Below are positions 2,832 through 28,052 of a stretch of DNA of 32,500 bases, piece by piece. The stretch is from a bacterium BMS3Bbin05 (lineage in GTDB: Bacteria > Nitrospirota > Thermodesulfovibrionia > Thermodesulfovibrionales > BMS3Bbin05). The first letter of the stretch is position 1. Each line of letters starts with the position of its first letter. The notes beneath the pieces are model-generated. The model ran no database searches, was not told the origin of the DNA, and saw only the letters and a list, made by a program, of their open reading frames with translations. The translations under genes were made by a program, and so were the position numbers. The stretch spans positions 1 through 32,500 of the forward strand of contig BDTO01000070.1 of the NCBI GenBank assembly GCA_002897855.1, read 5' to 3'.

Positions 2832-3431
2832 TATCCGCTGCCTCCAGTCTTATAGTTGAGCAACCTTGCAATTGTGACGAAAAAAAATATATTTAACTTC
2901 ACGCCTCTTTCATCTCTCTTGTCCCTGCATCAAGGATTTCCTGAAATGTCTGGTATTGAGGGAGTATAAGGCCATCCCGCATTCTTTTAAGTGGGTCATG
3001 ATTCCTGTCACTGGATACCTTCTTCCTCTCACTGCCGGTTATTTCCGGCGTTCATTTATTCTATGCCTCTGTTGAGACCTGTGTTTTCTTTTAAACGTAT
3101 GAACAAATGTTCAACTAATACTAACATTAATAACATCCTGGCTAAGATGCTGTCAACTTTCCTGAAGTTAACCTTAATTATACCGGTTCATCTACTACTA
3201 CTTTATCATCCAGGCTATGGTTTTTATCTCTAAATTAAAATGTTCAGACTCTACAAAACTTATATGTATAGCATACTTTTACTTTTTGAAGAAACGATGA
3301 AGAAAATGCGAAGATATTTCCGGAGGTTAATCCGGGTCTCTTTCTTCTGTCAAATTTTTCTTCAGTGTGTTGCCAGTAACCGTTCTCCTGTCAACTGTTT
3401 TATGTTTTGCTCTGCGGTTTCCACCGTGTAC

Positions 3432-3505
3432 TAAGATAGTGTCCGTGTATAAATTGCCATTTTTTGTTTTTGTCATGTCCCGAAAGCATTCGGGGAATGA
3501 CAGAT
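3432..3505. repeat. Half copy of the 4843-4988 inverted-repeat element
   Basis: The run from GTGTCCGTGTATAAATTGCC through the T-rich stretch to the GTCATGTCCCGAAAGCATTC hairpin is a diverged, reverse-oriented match to the right half of the element at 4843-4988. The other half is not seen here, so this is a truncated copy. Confidence 0.6.
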
Positions 3506-3532
3506 GGAGAGACTGACTTTATCAGGCTGTTG

Positions 3533-3663
3533 AAAAAGGCACAAAACAGTACAATGTGTCATGCTGAATCCCGAATTAAGCTCGGGACATCTAATGAAAT
3601 TAATGGGTCAGGAGACCCTGAAACAAGTTCAGGGTGACAATTAAGGAGTTTTCCAACAACTTG
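3533..3663. repeat. MITE-like element with CTGTTGGAAAA-type ends
   Basis: The left end reads CAGGCTGTTGAAAAA and the right end is TTTTCCAACAACTTG, whose reverse complement is CAAGTTGTTGGAAAA, giving imperfect terminal inverted repeats. The interior has inverted GTCATGCTGAATC and CAGGGTGACAAT motifs and shares blocks with the element at 3860-3990 in the opposite orientation. There is no coding capacity; a transposase elsewhere would be needed to move it. Confidence 0.6.
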
Positions 3664-3859
3664 TTATACACAGACTCCAACTATTATTCACTACTATACG
3701 GGATGAATCTGCGGTTTCTGCAGAGAAATGCAATTTTTTAGTGGATGAATTTTCTGGGCTAAAAACCTTCATACCTTCTTCACATCTTTTGAGTATCCTT
3801 GACATATGCGAGGAGAGCAGCATGATGCACCGGATGTGATTTCTGTGGGATGACTAAAC

Positions 3860-3990
3860 GGGCTGTTGCTCAAACCATAAATTGTCACCCTGAACTTGTT
3901 TCAGGGCTTCCTGACCCATTGTTTTTTATTAGATTCTGGATCAAGTCCGGAATGACAGCATGAGCATTTTCTTATTTGGCGCAACAGCTC
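3860..3990. repeat. MITE-like element with GGGCTGTTGC ends
   Basis: Terminal inverted repeats GGGCTGTTGC (3860-3869) and GCAACAGCTC (3981-3990) bound 131 bases. The interior (TTGTCACCCTGAACTTG, then TTCCTGACCCATT) matches the reverse strand of the element at 3533-3663, so the two are inverted relatives about 200 bases apart. Confidence 0.6.
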
Positions 3991-4066
3991 ATAAAGTCTT
4001 AATCAGGTACTCTCCGGCGGACTATCGCTACGATAGCGTTAATATTAGTAAAAGGAGGAATTCAGG

Positions 4067-4453
4067 ATGAAGTATTATTTCAGCAAGTCAATTGAAATGT
4101 CATTTGATGACGCCCTTAACAGGGTTGTCGAGGAACTGAAAAAAGAGGGGTTCGGAATTCTCACTCAAATCGATGTCGGGGAGACGTTAAAGAAAAAGCT
4201 GAATGTCGATTTTCGGAATTACCGGATCCTCGGTGCATGCAACCCCCCGTTTGCTTACAAAGCCTTGCAGGCAGAGGATAAAATTGGCACCATGCTCCCC
4301 TGCAATGTAGTTGTGCAGGAGACTCAAGAGGGGAAAGTGGATGTGGCGGCAATAGATCCTGTTGTGTCTATGCAGGCTGTTGATAACCCGGGGCTGACGG
4401 AAATAGCGGTACAGATCCAGGCGAAGCTGCGTAATGTAGTTAACAATTTGTAA
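4067..4453 (+). CDS. DUF302 domain protein
   Basis: A 128-residue soluble protein covering one DUF302 domain. The family core is plain: FGILTQIDVGETLKKKL, then YRILGACNPPFAYKAL, then GTMLPCNVVVQ. The two Cys (in GACNPP and LPCNV) are conserved in the family and could bind a ligand or redox partner. No enzymatic role is established for the family, which often sits near thiol, metal or sulfur genes. The start is decided by AGGAGG eight bases before ATG 4067. A short dyad (CTATCG-CTA-CGATAG, 4022-4036) lies just upstream and could be an operator or a leader hairpin. The gene stands alone between repeat elements. Confidence 0.85.
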   Translation: MKYYFSKSIEMSFDDALNRVVEELKKEGFGILTQIDVGETLKKKLNVDFRNYRILGACNPPFAYKALQAEDKIGTMLPCNVVVQETQEGKVDVAAIDPVVSMQAVDNPGLTEIAVQIQAKLRNVVNNL

Positions 4454-21789: not shown

Positions 21790-22203
21790 GTGGCAAATAG
21801 CAACGATTCGGAATTTATACAGATGGTCGCCGGCCATATGCAGAACGGGTTTCTCGAGAACATCATAGACATGTTCAAACATGACCCCGCTCTTTACTCG
21901 ATGCTCCCGCATCTCATTGCCGATGAACGCCTGGTAGTCCGGATTGGAACCACTGCGCTTATCGAAACCCTTAATGAAGAAGACAGAAACAATGTACAAA
22001 AAGCCGTTCCCTTGTTAATGCCCCTGCTTCTTCACGGCAATCCGAACATAAGGGGTGATGTGGCAAATATACTGGGCATAATCTCCGACAGTGATATCTC
22101 CGGGAGTATGGAACCACTTCTTCACGATAATAACGTTCACGTGAGGGTCATCGCTAAAGAAGCCATTGAAGAAATAAAAGAGAGGATAAGCGGAGGAAGC
22201 TGA
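21790..22203 (+). CDS. Small HEAT-repeat protein
   Basis: 137 residues, soluble and mostly alpha-helical, with two or three HEAT-type repeats (VVRIGTTALIETLNEED; HVRVIAKEAIEEIKERI). HEAT proteins are docking partners rather than enzymes. The start GTG 21790 is five bases after the RACo-type stop, with AGGA about 12 bases upstream; an internal ATG at 21823 is a possible alternative. The tight spacing suggests it helps the activator or its corrinoid target. The function is not established. Confidence 0.8.
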   Translation: MANSNDSEFIQMVAGHMQNGFLENIIDMFKHDPALYSMLPHLIADERLVVRIGTTALIETLNEEDRNNVQKAVPLLMPLLLHGNPNIRGDVANILGIISDSDISGSMEPLLHDNNVHVRVIAKEAIEEIKERISGGS

Positions 22204-22220: not shown

Positions 22221-22685
22221 TTATGAAACTTCGACCTTGATTTCCTTTGGTTTCGCCTCCTTTTTCTTCGGCAGAACTATCTCTAACATGCCGTTATTGA
22301 CAGTGGCGTTGGCCTTTTCGCTCTCAACCTCTGAAGGCAGTGTGATTGTCCTTGCAAACCTGCCGTAAGATATTTCCGACAGAAGGTAATCTTCTTCATT
22401 TACTTCCTCTCTCTTTTTCAGTTCACCCTTTATAGTAAGGGTATCTTCTGTAATGCTCAGGTCAATGTCCTTCTTATCGATCCCCGGCAGTTCAGCCCTT
22501 ACAAGGAATTCACCTTTCCTGTTGATCAATTCAACGTTTGGCACAAGTGTTCCGCTCTCCGTTAACCGGGGCCACCTTATAAGGTGTCTTCTCGGGAATG
22601 GTTCGATGAATTCATCAACGAGCCTTTCCATATCCCTCCTGATGTTCTCGAGTTCCCTCATCGGAGTCCATTTTACAATAGCCAT
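22221..22685 (-). CDS. Hsp20/alpha-crystallin small heat-shock protein
   Basis: 154 residues. The alpha-crystallin domain spans about residues 48-140, with the family motifs FLVRAELPGIDKKDIDLSI and GRFARTITLPSEVESEKANA, then NNGMLEIVLPKK near the end; the A-x-x-x-n-G-x-L pattern is complete. Small heat-shock proteins hold unfolding proteins until ClpB/DnaK refold them. AGGAGG is upstream of ATG 22685. It is last in the dnaJ-hspR-clpB-hsp20 run, 50 bases after clpB. Confidence 0.95.
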   Translation of the reverse strand: MAIVKWTPMRELENIRRDMERLVDEFIEPFPRRHLIRWPRLTESGTLVPNVELINRKGEFLVRAELPGIDKKDIDLSITEDTLTIKGELKKREEVNEEDYLLSEISYGRFARTITLPSEVESEKANATVNNGMLEIVLPKKKEAKPKEIKVEVS

Positions 22686-22735: not shown

Positions 22736-25378
22736 TCAGGCAGTTATCTCAGCCTGTACAGCCTTGCTGAATAAGAGTTTCCCGTTTTGATAGTCAACCT
22801 CAATGGTATCACCTTCCCGAAACGTGCCGCTCAGTAATTCTTTTGCAAGTCTGTTCAGTACCTCCCTCTGTATCGCCCTCTTCAGCGGACGAGCTCCATA
22901 CACGGGATCGAATCCGATATCAGCAAGATGCTCCTTTGCGCTGCCGGTTAATGTGATATCGATCCTCTTATCCTTGAAATACTTCTTCATCCTGTTTATC
23001 TGTATATCAACTATCTTCGTCAGCAGTTTTTTGGTGAGAGGATTAAATATGATTATCTCATCCACCCTGTTAAGGAATTCAGGCTTGAAAAAGCCCCTGA
23101 GATCATCCATCACCTTCTGCTTCAGTTCCATGTTGTTGCTGTCCCAGTGTGCCGGGGATTTCTTTCCGGATTCCTCCAGAAGCTGCTGAATATGCATACT
23201 TCCTATATTCGAAGTCATTATGACCACACTATTTCTGAAATCCACGGTTCTTCCATGACCGTCCGTTAGCCTGCCGTCATCCAACAACTGGAGCAGGACA
23301 TTAAAGACCTCAGGATGCGCCTTTTCCACCTCGTCAAAAAGGATTACGGAATAGGGCCGTCTCCTTACGGCCTCTGTAAGCTGGCCTCCCTCGTCATAAC
23401 CCACATATCCGGGTGGAGCGCCAATAAGCCTTGAAACCGTATGGCTTTCCTGGTATTCAGACATGTCGATCCTCTGCATCGCACTTTCATCATCAAAAAG
23501 AAATTCCGCAAGCGCCCTGGCAAGTTCCGTCTTTCCAACACCCGTCGGACCGAGAAATATGAAAGAGCCTATGGGTCTGTTGGGGTCCTGTATGCCCGCC
23601 CGTGCCCTCCTTACGGCATTGGAAACCGCTTCCAAGGCCTCATCCTGTCCTATTACCCTCAGTTTAAGCCTTTCCTCCATTTTCAACAGCTTCTCCTTTT
23701 CACCCTCAAGCATCCTGCTTACGGGTATCCCGGTCCATTTGGAGATGACACCTGCTATATCTTCCTCATCGACTTCTTCCTTCAGCATCTTTTTCTTTGA
23801 CTGTTTTTCCGAAAGCCTTCTGTTTTCTTCTTCAAGCTCTTTCTGCAACTGGAGAAGTTTGCCGTATTTGAACTCGGCCGCTTTTGTCAGATCTCCTTCT
23901 CTTTCTGCCTTCTGCGCCTCTATCTTTGTCTGTTCTATCTGCTCCTTGATATCCCTGATCTTCTGTATGGCCTCCTTTTCGCTCAACCAGTGCGCTCTCA
24001 ACTCAGCCCTTTGTTCACCAAGATCGGCAATTTCCCTGTTTATCTCTTCGAGCTTTTCCCTTGCGTCCGCTGAATTGTCTTTAGTTACGGCCTGCTTCTC
24101 TATTTCAAGTTGCCTGATGCGTCTTTCTATCTCATCGAGCTCGATCGGCATGCTGTCGATCTCCATCCTCAGCTTCGATGCCGCCTCATCAATAAGGTCT
24201 ATAGCCTTGTCGGGCAACTGCCTTTCCGTCAGATACCGGTGCGAAAGTATTGCAGCGGCAATGAGCGCAGAATCCTTTATCTTTACCCCGTGATGAACCT
24301 CATACCTCTCTTTCAGCCCCCTGAGTATGGAGATTGTGTCCTCCACAGAAGGTTCCTGTACATAAACCGGCTGGAACCGTCTTTCCAGGGCAGCGTCCTT
24401 TTCGATATATTTTCTGTATTCATTAAGGGTAGTAGCGCCCACACACCTGAGATCACCCCTTGCAAGCGCCGGTTTCAGCATATTCGATGCATCAATAGCA
24501 CCTTCGGCAGCACCTGCGCCGACAAGAGTATGCATTTCATCAATAAAGAGGATTATCCTTCCCCCGGCCTGTTCGATTTCTTTCAGCACGGCTTTAAGCC
24601 TTTCCTCGAATTCGCCCCTGAACTTTGAACCGGCTATAAGCGATCCCATATCGAGGGCAACCACCTTCTTGTCTTTTAATGTCTCCGGCACATCACCTTC
24701 AACGATCCTCTGGGCCAGGCCCTCGGCAATGGCGGTTTTCCCTACACCGGGATCACCTATAAGCACGGGATTGTTCTTCGTTCTCCTCGAGAGTACCTGC
24801 ATAATGCGTCTGATTTCCTCATCTCTCCCTATCACAGGGTCGAGCTTGTGTTTTTTTGCAAGTTCTGTAAGGTCACGCGCATATTTCTTCAGGGCCTGGT
24901 ACTTCTCTTCGGGATTGGCGTCCGTCACACTCTGTCCACCCCTTATATCCTTCATGGCCTTAAGAAAGTTATCCCTGTTCACATTGTATCTCTTCAATAT
25001 CTCTGAAGCCGGTCCGCCCGACGAGATTATCCCGAGCATGATATGTTCGACGGATATGTATTCATCCTTGAGATGTTCAGCCTCCTTTTGTGCCTTCTCG
25101 AAGACCGTTTTCAGACGTGGTGATACATATATCTGTCCAAGCGGAGTAGAGCCCGAAACCTTCGGGAACTTTTCAATCTCTTTATCAATATCACGCTTAA
25201 CAAGCTCAGGAGCAGCGCCAATCGACTGTGTAATCTGATATGCCACGGATTCTGTATCCGAGAACAGGCTGAAAAGAAGGTGTTCAGGCTGTATTTCCTG
25301 ATTCCCTCTTCTCTCAGCTACGGCCTGTGCTTCCTGGAGGGCCTCCTGGCTTTTTATCGTTAATTTATCCAGTCTCAT
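22736..25378 (-). CDS. clpB: ClpB disaggregase
   Basis: 880 residues, the normal ClpB length. It has an N-terminal Clp repeat domain (1-145), the first AAA+ ATPase with Walker A GDPGVGKT (208-215) and LFIDEMHTL, a long coiled-coil middle domain (about 400-530, [16 protein letters not shown] at its end), and a second AAA+ with GPTGVGKT (about 605) and [13 protein letters not shown]. ClpB pulls aggregated proteins apart with DnaK/DnaJ. AGGAGGAAAG lies before ATG 25378. The gene is 29 bases downstream of hspR, and its control by HspR is likely. Confidence 0.98.
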
Positions 25379-25407: not shown

Positions 25408-25752
25408 TTAACTGCTGAAGAGTTTCCTCAGCTTTCTCTCAAACTCCGCCCTTACATCATCTTCAAGCCTGGTCATCATGTCATCCATTTCCCTGTGCAT
25501 GAGTTCAAGTTTTTCACGCATTCTGAGTATTATATCGACACCGGCCTTGTTTACTCCCAACTCTCTCGTCAGCTGAAGAATAAAATTGATCCTTTCTATG
25601 TCCTCTTCAGAGTAAAGCCTCTGCCGGTTGTTTCGCTTCGGACATATAAGCCCTTCTCTTTCATAAAGTCTGAGAGTCTGCGGATGAACTCCCAGCATTC
25701 TTGAAACAACGCTTATCATATATAATGGCTCGCTCCGGTCTCGATTGTTCAT
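25408..25752 (-). CDS. hspR: HspR heat-shock repressor (MerR family)
   Basis: 114 residues with the MerR-type winged helix (MISVVSRMLGVHPQTLRLYEREGLICPKR) and a C-terminal coiled coil (MREKLELMHREMDDMMTRLEDDV). The LYEREGL and NRQRLYSEEDIERI motifs are characteristic of HspR, which represses chaperone operons by binding HAIR sites with DnaK as co-repressor. ATG 25752 shares a base with the dnaJ stop (TAATG), so the two are translationally coupled. A HAIR-like site sits in front of dnaJ (26870-26890), so it controls its own operon. Confidence 0.95.
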   Translation of the reverse strand: MNNRDRSEPLYMISVVSRMLGVHPQTLRLYEREGLICPKRNNRQRLYSEEDIERINFILQLTRELGVNKAGVDIILRMREKLELMHREMDDMMTRLEDDVRAEFERKLRKLFSS

Positions 25753-26837
25753 TATCTCACCATCCCCTTGCGAGGGTTCACGGTATATAATTTCCCAAGT
25801 TTCTCTATAAGCTTCTTTGCTTCATCATTAAGCTTCTGCGGTATTACTATATAGACCTCAACATAGTGGTCGCCCCTTTTCCCGGTCTTTGGTGAAGGCA
25901 TACCCTTTCCCTTCAACCTGAATTTTTTCCCCCCTGATGTACCGGGCGGAATGGTCATGTATGATTCACCCTCAATAGTGGGTACCTTGATCTTCGAACC
26001 GAGAGCGGCTTCGGGTAACGTAATGGGTACCTTTACCAGTATATTATTTCCATCGCGCCTGAATAATTTGTGTGGGAGCACCTTGATCCTGAAGAACAGG
26101 TCTCCAGGCGGTCCTCCATTCTGACCCGGTGCGCCCTTCCCCTTTACTCTGACCCTGGAACCCGTGTCGACACCAACGGGAATCTTTACCTTTATTGTCT
26201 CCCGCTTGAAAACCGTTCCTCTGCCGCCGCATCCGGTGCATACCTTTGAGACGCTCTGACCTGAGCCTCCACAGGACGGGCATTGCTGGGACAAATTGAA
26301 AAAACCCTTTGATGTTTTTACCTTTCCTGTCCCATTACACCTGCGGCACTTTTGAATGGATTCAGCCCCTGTCCCGTTGCAGGATGGGCAGCTTACCTCC
26401 CTGTTCATTGTCACTGAACGTGTTACACCATTAAATGCATCTTCCATTGTCAGCGTCATATCGGAAACAACATCTGCACCGCGCATACTCATATGGCGGC
26501 CGCCAAGGTCAGCGCCGTTGCCAAAGATATCGGAGAAGATATCCGTATAGCCACCTGCTTCAAATCCTCCTCTCCCAAAACCCTGGAAGCCTTCAAATCC
26601 GCCGGCTTCAAAAGGTGTCTTTCCCAGTTCATCATATTCCTTTCTCTTCCTGGGATCTCCCAGTACAGCATAAGCCTCGCTTAGACTCTTAAACTTCTTT
26701 TCAGCCTTCTTGTCTCCGGGATTGAGGTCGGGATGGTATTTCCTCGCAAGTTTCCTGTATACCTTCTTGATTTCATCCTGAGAGGCATTTTTACTTACGC
26801 CAAGTATCTCGTAATAATCTTTTGCCATAGTACTCAT
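25752..26837 (-). CDS. dnaJ: DnaJ co-chaperone
   Basis: 361 residues. J domain (1-70) with HPD in YHPDLNPGD, a Gly/Phe-rich linker (about 78-115), and four zinc knuckles [24 protein letters not shown] and CTGCGGRG, then the C-terminal substrate-binding domains with [19 protein letters not shown]. This is a class I DnaJ, which stimulates the DnaK ATPase. AAGGT precedes ATG 26837; an ATG three codons later is in frame. It heads the operon, and dnaK/grpE are not in the window. Confidence 0.97.
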
Positions 26838-26860: not shown

Positions 26861-26899
26861 ATTATAATACTTGACATAACTCTTGTCAAGATATATTTT
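26861..26899. promoter_or_regulatory. Overlapping divergent promoters with a HAIR-like HspR site
   Basis: CTTGACA-N7-TGTCAAG (26870-26890) is a perfect 7-7-7 inverted repeat resembling the HspR HAIR element (CTTGAGT-N7-ACTCAAG). On the minus strand TTGACA (26884-26889), 17 bases, TATAAT (26861-26866) leads to dnaJ. On the plus strand TTGACA (26871-26876), 17 bases, TATTTT (26894-26899) leads to the DUF362 gene. Each repeat arm contains one -35 box. Confidence 0.8.
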
Positions 26900-26936: not shown

Positions 26937-28052
26937 ATGTTATATTTAACGATGTCGGAGGTGATTGTAAAAAATGCGGAGGATTATCACGGGAATCTCA
27001 AAATAATTGTTTATGATGTGCTTGACAGGACTATTGGAAATATGTATCTTGACGGTCTCAGTGTATTGGTTAAACCTAACCTGCTTTCGGCTGCATCTCC
27101 TGAAAAGGCCGTCACGACACATCCGCGAATAATCCGGTTCGTGTGCGAATATCTTGCAGAAAAAAATGCCGGGATTACAATATCCGACAGCCCCGCAGTT
27201 GGCTCGTTCAAGAAAATTATTAAGGAGTGCGGGATCGTTGATGAACTGAAAGGTATACCGGTAAAGTTCACTGAATTCAAGAAGAGCCGACAGGTTGAAG
27301 TCAATGCCCCCTTTCACAGGATAGAACTGGCATCGGATGCACTCGATGCCGGACTGATTATCAATCTGCCCAAACTCAAGACACATTCCCAGATGCTGCT
27401 CACACTCGGGGTAAAAAATCTGTTCGGCTGTGTTGTCGGTATGCGGAAGCCGCAATGGCATTTACGTACGGGTGTTGATACTGATATGTTTGCCAGGCTG
27501 CTCATAGAGATTTACCTTTCTTTAAAGCCCTCCATAACCATCCTTGACGGTATCCTGGGAATGGAAGGCCAGGGACCCGGCAAACGCGGCATCCCGAAAC
27601 ATCTTGGAGTAATTCTTGCCAGTGAGGATGCGATTGCTCTCGACTATGTTGTTGCACAGATGCTCAATATTGATCCTATGTCCGTACCGGTAAACAGGGC
27701 AGCCGGCAATATGGGTCTTGTCAGGGATATGGACATTAATGGAGAGATTCGTAAAGTCACCGGCTTTTTGCTCCCGAAGACGGCAGACCTGCTCTTCGGC
27801 CCCGCTTTTCTTCACCGGTTCATGAGAAAAAACCTTACGCAAAGACCGGAGCATGAAGAAGACCTGTGTGAAATGTGCCTTGAATGCATAAATCACTGTC
27901 CTGCCGCTGCAATAAGTACACTCGATAATTCTCTCAGGTTTGATTATGATAGATGTATAAGATGTTACTGCTGTGTCGAGATATGCCCTTTTGGCGCCAT
28001 GAAAACGACGCAACCCCTTATGGGCAGAATTTTTTCCAGGATAATAAAGTAG
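26937..28052 (+). CDS. DUF362 protein with two 4Fe-4S clusters
   Basis: 371 residues from ATG 26937 (a TTG at 26883 lies inside the operator and is unlikely). The DUF362 domain (about 10-310) has VLVKPNLLSAASPEKAVTTH, then LPKLKTHSQMLLTLGVKNLFG. A C-terminal ferredoxin has CEMCLECINHCP and CIRCYCCVEICP, two 4Fe-4S sites. DUF362 proteins are iron-sulfur proteins of unresolved function, common in anaerobes. The promoter shares the HspR-type operator with dnaJ, so heat-shock or redox-linked control is likely. It is followed by a short ribbon-helix-helix gene nine bases later. Confidence 0.85.
   Translation: MLYLTMSEVIVKNAEDYHGNLKIIVYDVLDRTIGNMYLDGLSVLVKPNLLSAASPEKAVTTHPRIIRFVCEYLAEKNAGITISDSPAVGSFKKIIKECGIVDELKGIPVKFTEFKKSRQVEVNAPFHRIELASDALDAGLIINLPKLKTHSQMLLTLGVKNLFGCVVGMRKPQWHLRTGVDTDMFARLLIEIYLSLKPSITILDGILGMEGQGPGKRGIPKHLGVILASEDAIALDYVVAQMLNIDPMSVPVNRAAGNMGLVRDMDINGEIRKVTGFLLPKTADLLFGPAFLHRFMRKNLTQRPEHEEDLCEMCLECINHCPAAAISTLDNSLRFDYDRCIRCYCCVEICPFGAMKTTQPLMGRIFSRIIK

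Follow-up and report, generated by a model that had tools for sequence, protein, structure and literature searches.

Does a single inverted repeat, lying between a chaperone operon and a divergent DUF362 gene, control transcription in one direction or in both? The repeat occurs in a 32,500-nucleotide stretch of DNA (the window) from bacterium BMS3Bbin05, a member of the Nitrospirota, and a preliminary description of this DNA had proposed that it feeds promoters on both strands. We consider it very likely that the element at 26870–26890 is an autoregulatory operator of the repressor HspR, placed over the promoter of dnaJ-hspR-clpB-hsp20, that the DUF362 gene is probably read from or near this operator and perhaps co-repressed, and that the arrangement is lineage-specific rather than a conserved circuit.

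The repeat and the dnaJ promoter

Read directly, CTTGACATAACTCTTGTCAAG at 26870–26890 is a perfect inverted repeat with 7-bp arms and an N7 spacer (CTTGACA TAACTCT TGTCAAG), with its centre of symmetry at about 26880. This reproduces exactly the CTTGACA-N7-TGTCAAG element, with a TTGACA in each arm, that had been described earlier, and it is the single exact copy of CTTGACA-N5..9-TGTCAAG in the 2.46-Mb genome, where about 0.01 copies are expected from composition. On the minus strand, the TTGACA at 26889–26884, a -35 conserved across the order, is followed after 17 bp by TATAAT at 26866–26861, confirming the hexamers proposed for the leftward promoter of the dnaJ operon, which match the sigma70 consensus at 12 of 12 bases. 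On the plus strand, the mirror TTGACA (26871–26876) is followed by TATTTT (26894–26899), a candidate -35 and weak -10 that together match at 10/12 bases, and the exact 17-bp spacing claimed for both strands holds on direct reading.

The leftward genes, all on the minus strand, are dnaJ (25752–26837, with its start at 26837 or 26828; Pfam DnaJ domains, TIGR02349 above cut-off), the MerR-family repressor gene hspR (25408–25752), whose start shares a single overlapping base with the stop of dnaJ, clpB (22736–25378; TIGR03346 at 1369 bits, above cut-off), and hsp20 (22221–22685; Pfam HSP20). That HspR is encoded in this operon was part of the earlier proposal, and is supported by the gene order, the Pfam MerR_1 match, and the top ranking of HspR models among NCBIfam models. 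The score against the HspR model NF047375, 98.1 bits, is slightly below the curated cut-off of 105, with the next non-HspR family at 42 bits. This shortfall counts against the HspR-operator account, as do the failure to find dnaK in the 93% complete assembly, in which the HSP70 matches are only of the MreB and FtsA types, and the occurrence in one relative (G007) of symmetric arms with no nearby divergent gene. dnaK is present in 12 of 12 relatives tested; the missing gene is probably an assembly gap in this bin.

The published HAIR consensus, CTTGAGT-N7-ACTCAAG (PMC6102357), shares with the window repeat the 7-bp arms, the N7 spacer, and a cognate chaperone operon containing hspR, and 5/7 bases are identical in each arm. 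Two marks of HAIR membership are found here, a CTTGA..-N7-..TCAAG repeat and its position at the promoter of a chaperone operon that encodes HspR. The arms differ in their last two bases, CA/TG instead of GT/AC, which makes each arm a perfect -35, and the window has one copy where three are reported at S. coelicolor dnaK (PMC6102357). In H. pylori, a HAIR motif overlaps the hspR promoter, both of its arms are essential, and HAIR-dependent repression has been shown at Pcbp (PMC6102357). Pcbp (cbpA-hspR) and the window are alike in having a single HAIR-like motif over the promoter of an operon that joins a dnaJ-type gene (cbpA in H. pylori) to hspR (PMC6102357), and autoregulation, predicted here, would be common to both; the H. 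pylori motif is imperfect, however, and HspR covers 70–80 bp there, whereas the window repeat is perfect and has a divergent gene 46 bp away.

We consider it most likely that, much as in other HspR systems, an HspR dimer, with DnaK as its likely co-repressor, would bind the HAIR-type repeat and block RNA polymerase by lying over the -35 and the spacer of the dnaJ promoter, whose hexamers are consensus, and that misfolded protein would lift repression of the dnaJ operon by titrating the chaperones.

Conservation of the operator among relatives

Each of the 61 related genomes searched has an HspR-like match, with few exceptions a strong one, and dnaJ-hspR-clpB is the usual order in the 58 regions around such matches. 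The relatives' dnaJ promoters were picked by their -35 and -10 alone, the 3' arm playing no part in the selection, and 50 of 54 pass, with the consensus TTGACA-17-TATnAT. The passing promoters have an invariant CTTGACA and, inside the 17-bp spacer, a HAIR-type second arm that is usually ACTCAAG, ACTAAAG or TATCAAG. In this 3' arm, at +14 to +20 counted from where the 5' arm starts, each base holds 1.10 bits, against 0.47 for the remaining spacer bases, an information content that indicates selection on both arms beyond their promoter role; T16 and A18 within it are 94–98% fixed among dnaJ promoters, and its mean match is 5.16/7 to the canonical HAIR arm ACTCAAG against 4.26/7 to TGTCAAG. The symmetric form TTGACA-N7-TGTCAA-N4-TATNAT has four matches in the 230 genomes of the class, each directly before dnaJ-hspR, and the reversed-pattern control gave zero matches in the same genomes.

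The preliminary description asked whether the repeat is conserved in relatives, and the operator is kept order-wide. That description's reading of the repeat as an HspR/HAIR site that would make the dnaJ promoter repressible draws strong support from this conservation and from the fact that the symmetric site is confined to promoters of dnaJ-hspR. Judged from sequence, the repeat is a well-supported candidate HspR operator of ordinary type, with a local twist, and an HspR operator consensus for this Nitrospirota order can be written as CTTGACA-N7-[AT][CA]T[AC]AAG-N3-TATWAT. In our reading, the first (5') arm would be drawn to CTTGACA, and held there, by its double role as -35, an added role that we suggest as the cause of this one arm's departure from the Streptomyces HAIR, and the second arm would usually keep the HAIR form. 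The twist in the window is that the 3' arm also reads CTTGACA on the opposite strand, which would give rise to a second, weaker promoter-like sequence facing the DUF362 gene.

A variant element was seen in family f9, where the dnaJ starts at five loci (L076, L080, L082, L085 and L087) have a near-identical NTTGATA-TAAATTA-ACTCAAT at about -40 and lack a consensus -10 spaced at 17 bp; this variant suggests a shifted promoter or leader. The divergent neighbours of the dnaJ-hspR operon also differ between families in the order, including a peroxiredoxin/thiol-peroxidase-like gene at L077 (G015), at a distance of 101 nt, and one resembling ClpC at L082 (G051), at 217 nt.

The DUF362 gene and its candidate promoter

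The rightward gene (26937–28052, plus strand) encodes a DUF362 protein with two C-terminal 4Fe-4S motifs. Its start is probably ATG 26937, because GGTGA lies upstream and the N-terminus is equally long in the congener, the other candidate being ATG 26952. With the former start the gap to dnaJ is 99 bp (71% A+T), and because the two starts lie this close together transcription of the DUF362 gene probably starts inside the operator or beside it and may come under repression along with the operon, co-repression being plausible in the window species. The best promoter match in the gap is the repeat's own. A palindrome that contains TTGACA forces a mirror TTGACA, however, so the independent evidence for a rightward promoter is the -10 alone. 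TATTTT matches TATAAT at 4/6 bases, and in simulations of such AT-rich DNA the chance of a 4/6 match of the TANNNT type is about 0.06 at a spacing of exactly 17 bp and 0.19 at 16–18 bp, rising to 0.43 for any 4/6 -10 match at 16–18 bp. As a rightward -10, TATTTT stays at background. Of the proposed rightward TTGACA-17-TATTTT, then, the hexamers and spacing stand, but the -10 does not go beyond chance.

On the non-dnaJ side, 15 of 49 relatives carry a -10 that matches at 4/6 or better with 17-bp spacing, and their divergent neighbours vary and are mostly distant. In nine other relatives the rightward -35 matches at 5/6 or better without forming a convincing promoter, and among the relatives we saw no link between a -35-like second arm and a close divergent gene. 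DUF362 orthologues occur in 83 of 176 genomes of the order (E<=1e-50), and the gene is divergent from dnaJ only in the window species and in G001, its single available congener. G001 keeps both the gene order and the operator, with the leftward TTGACA-17-TATAAT intact, but on the DUF362 side its arm reads TTGATA, followed after 17 bp by TTTCAA, so that the shared-arm promoter is not retained; a more distant TATAAT could be part of a different weak promoter.

These comparisons bear first on a one-way reading of the operator, to which we give somewhat less than an even chance, in which the second TTGACA would be just the palindrome of an HspR dimer site, and DUF362 would be transcribed independently of HspR from another weak promoter or by read-through. 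The frequency of -10 matches on the non-dnaJ side, the symmetric arms of G007 with no close divergent gene, and the missing shared-arm promoter of G001 all favour it, but within a 99-bp gap an independent promoter would have to adjoin the operator or sit inside dnaJ, and the repeat still offers the best match in the region.

Genuine sharing, the model of the preliminary description, in which HspR would repress dnaJ and DUF362 jointly and both would rise on heat shock, is a more tentative proposal. It accords with the exact 17-bp spacing both ways, symmetric about 26880, with the position of the operator inside both candidate core promoters, and with the retention of gene order and operator in G001; it sits poorly with a weak -10 whose sequence G001 does not preserve, and with about 110 DUF362 orthologues elsewhere (28 order-level upstream regions and 80 named loci) that have neither a HAIR element nor a dnaJ neighbour. 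We are just as tentative about the idea that one perfectly symmetric HspR operator, its arms serving as -35s for a pair of divergent promoters that overlap completely, would put DUF362 under chaperone-titration control in the genus.

Competition between the promoters seems unlikely to us. The two would overlap totally and admit one RNA polymerase, so that once HspR leaves, the dnaJ promoter, with its 12/12 consensus bases against 10/12, would exclude that of DUF362, whose expression would stay flat or fall on heat shock. The geometry agrees with this, and competition of this type has been demonstrated for bidirectional promoters of E. coli in which transcription one way is strong (PMC12825309); the idea would nevertheless require the rightward promoter to be real. 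The precedent is alike in having overlapping divergent cores that one polymerase or repressor could block, but its promoters share their -10 (PMC12825309), whereas in the window it is the -35/operator region that is shared, with each -35 inside the other's spacer and both -10s outside.

Returning to the preferred reading, an HspR operator over the dnaJ promoter, we think it likely that DUF362 is influenced by the same HspR complex, though the outcome could be no effect, co-repression or competition. The suggestion that one repeat feeds both directions therefore fares unequally, with strong support leftward and weak support rightward, where the -35 is a forced mirror, the -10 is at background level, and the pair is not kept in the congener. 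Conservation of both -10 boxes, the check proposed for relatives, is not borne out: the gene pair exists only in the window species and G001, the rightward promoter is not kept in G001, and no other family examined has the arrangement, so that the bidirectional feature, unlike the operator, is not conserved. The DUF362 link would be a recent and poorly conserved by-product, within the genus, of the way the genes are ordered. Should the rightward promoter be real, a reordering of genes would have brought a non-chaperone gene under a heat-shock operator, a small, clean case of such capture. None of this is yet evidence for placing an iron-sulfur protein in the chaperone regulon.

Most of the nearest named orthologues of the DUF362 protein come from Nitrospirota/Thermodesulfovibrionia and Desulfobacterota bins, and across the 80 loci no neighbours recur beyond small groups. 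A PDB sequence search with the protein matched only its ferredoxin part, leaving the DUF362 domain without a match, and the literature searched contained no link between HspR and DUF362; one study brings in DUF362 solely as an outgroup, from the same clan, for the LarA superfamily (PMC11770544). In one named Thermodesulfovibrionia bin (L170, 486–962 / 1938–2741 / 3001–4101), a HEAT-repeat gene resembling window 21790–22203 lies near the DUF362 orthologue, and between them, at the place taken by the dnaJ operon in the window, is a carbon-nitrogen hydrolase-like gene. At some other loci, hydrolase-like genes of a similar kind are divergent to DUF362. These gene orders suggest that the chaperone operon moved beside DUF362 in the window lineage.

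Heat-shock sites elsewhere in the genome

A wider HspR regulon was also considered. HAIR-like sites with up to 3 mismatches number 193, against 119 for the reversed control, and no other site was accepted; among the 14 best-scoring other sites, 13 are within ORFs of unrelated genes, the remaining one (L125) is just outside an MFS-transporter-like ORF, and none is at a chaperone promoter. In the relatives, no convincing HAIR or CIRCE element was found close to dnaK within the flanks examined. Dual control of the HrcA and HspR types is indicated for the window genome, which contains two perfect elements of the other heat-shock operator class, CIRCE, at G000:C53:32478-32504 (L136) and G000:C75:9838-9864 (L137), one before a second hsp20 and the other before groES-groEL, so that HspR-type and HrcA-type sites coexist in this genome.
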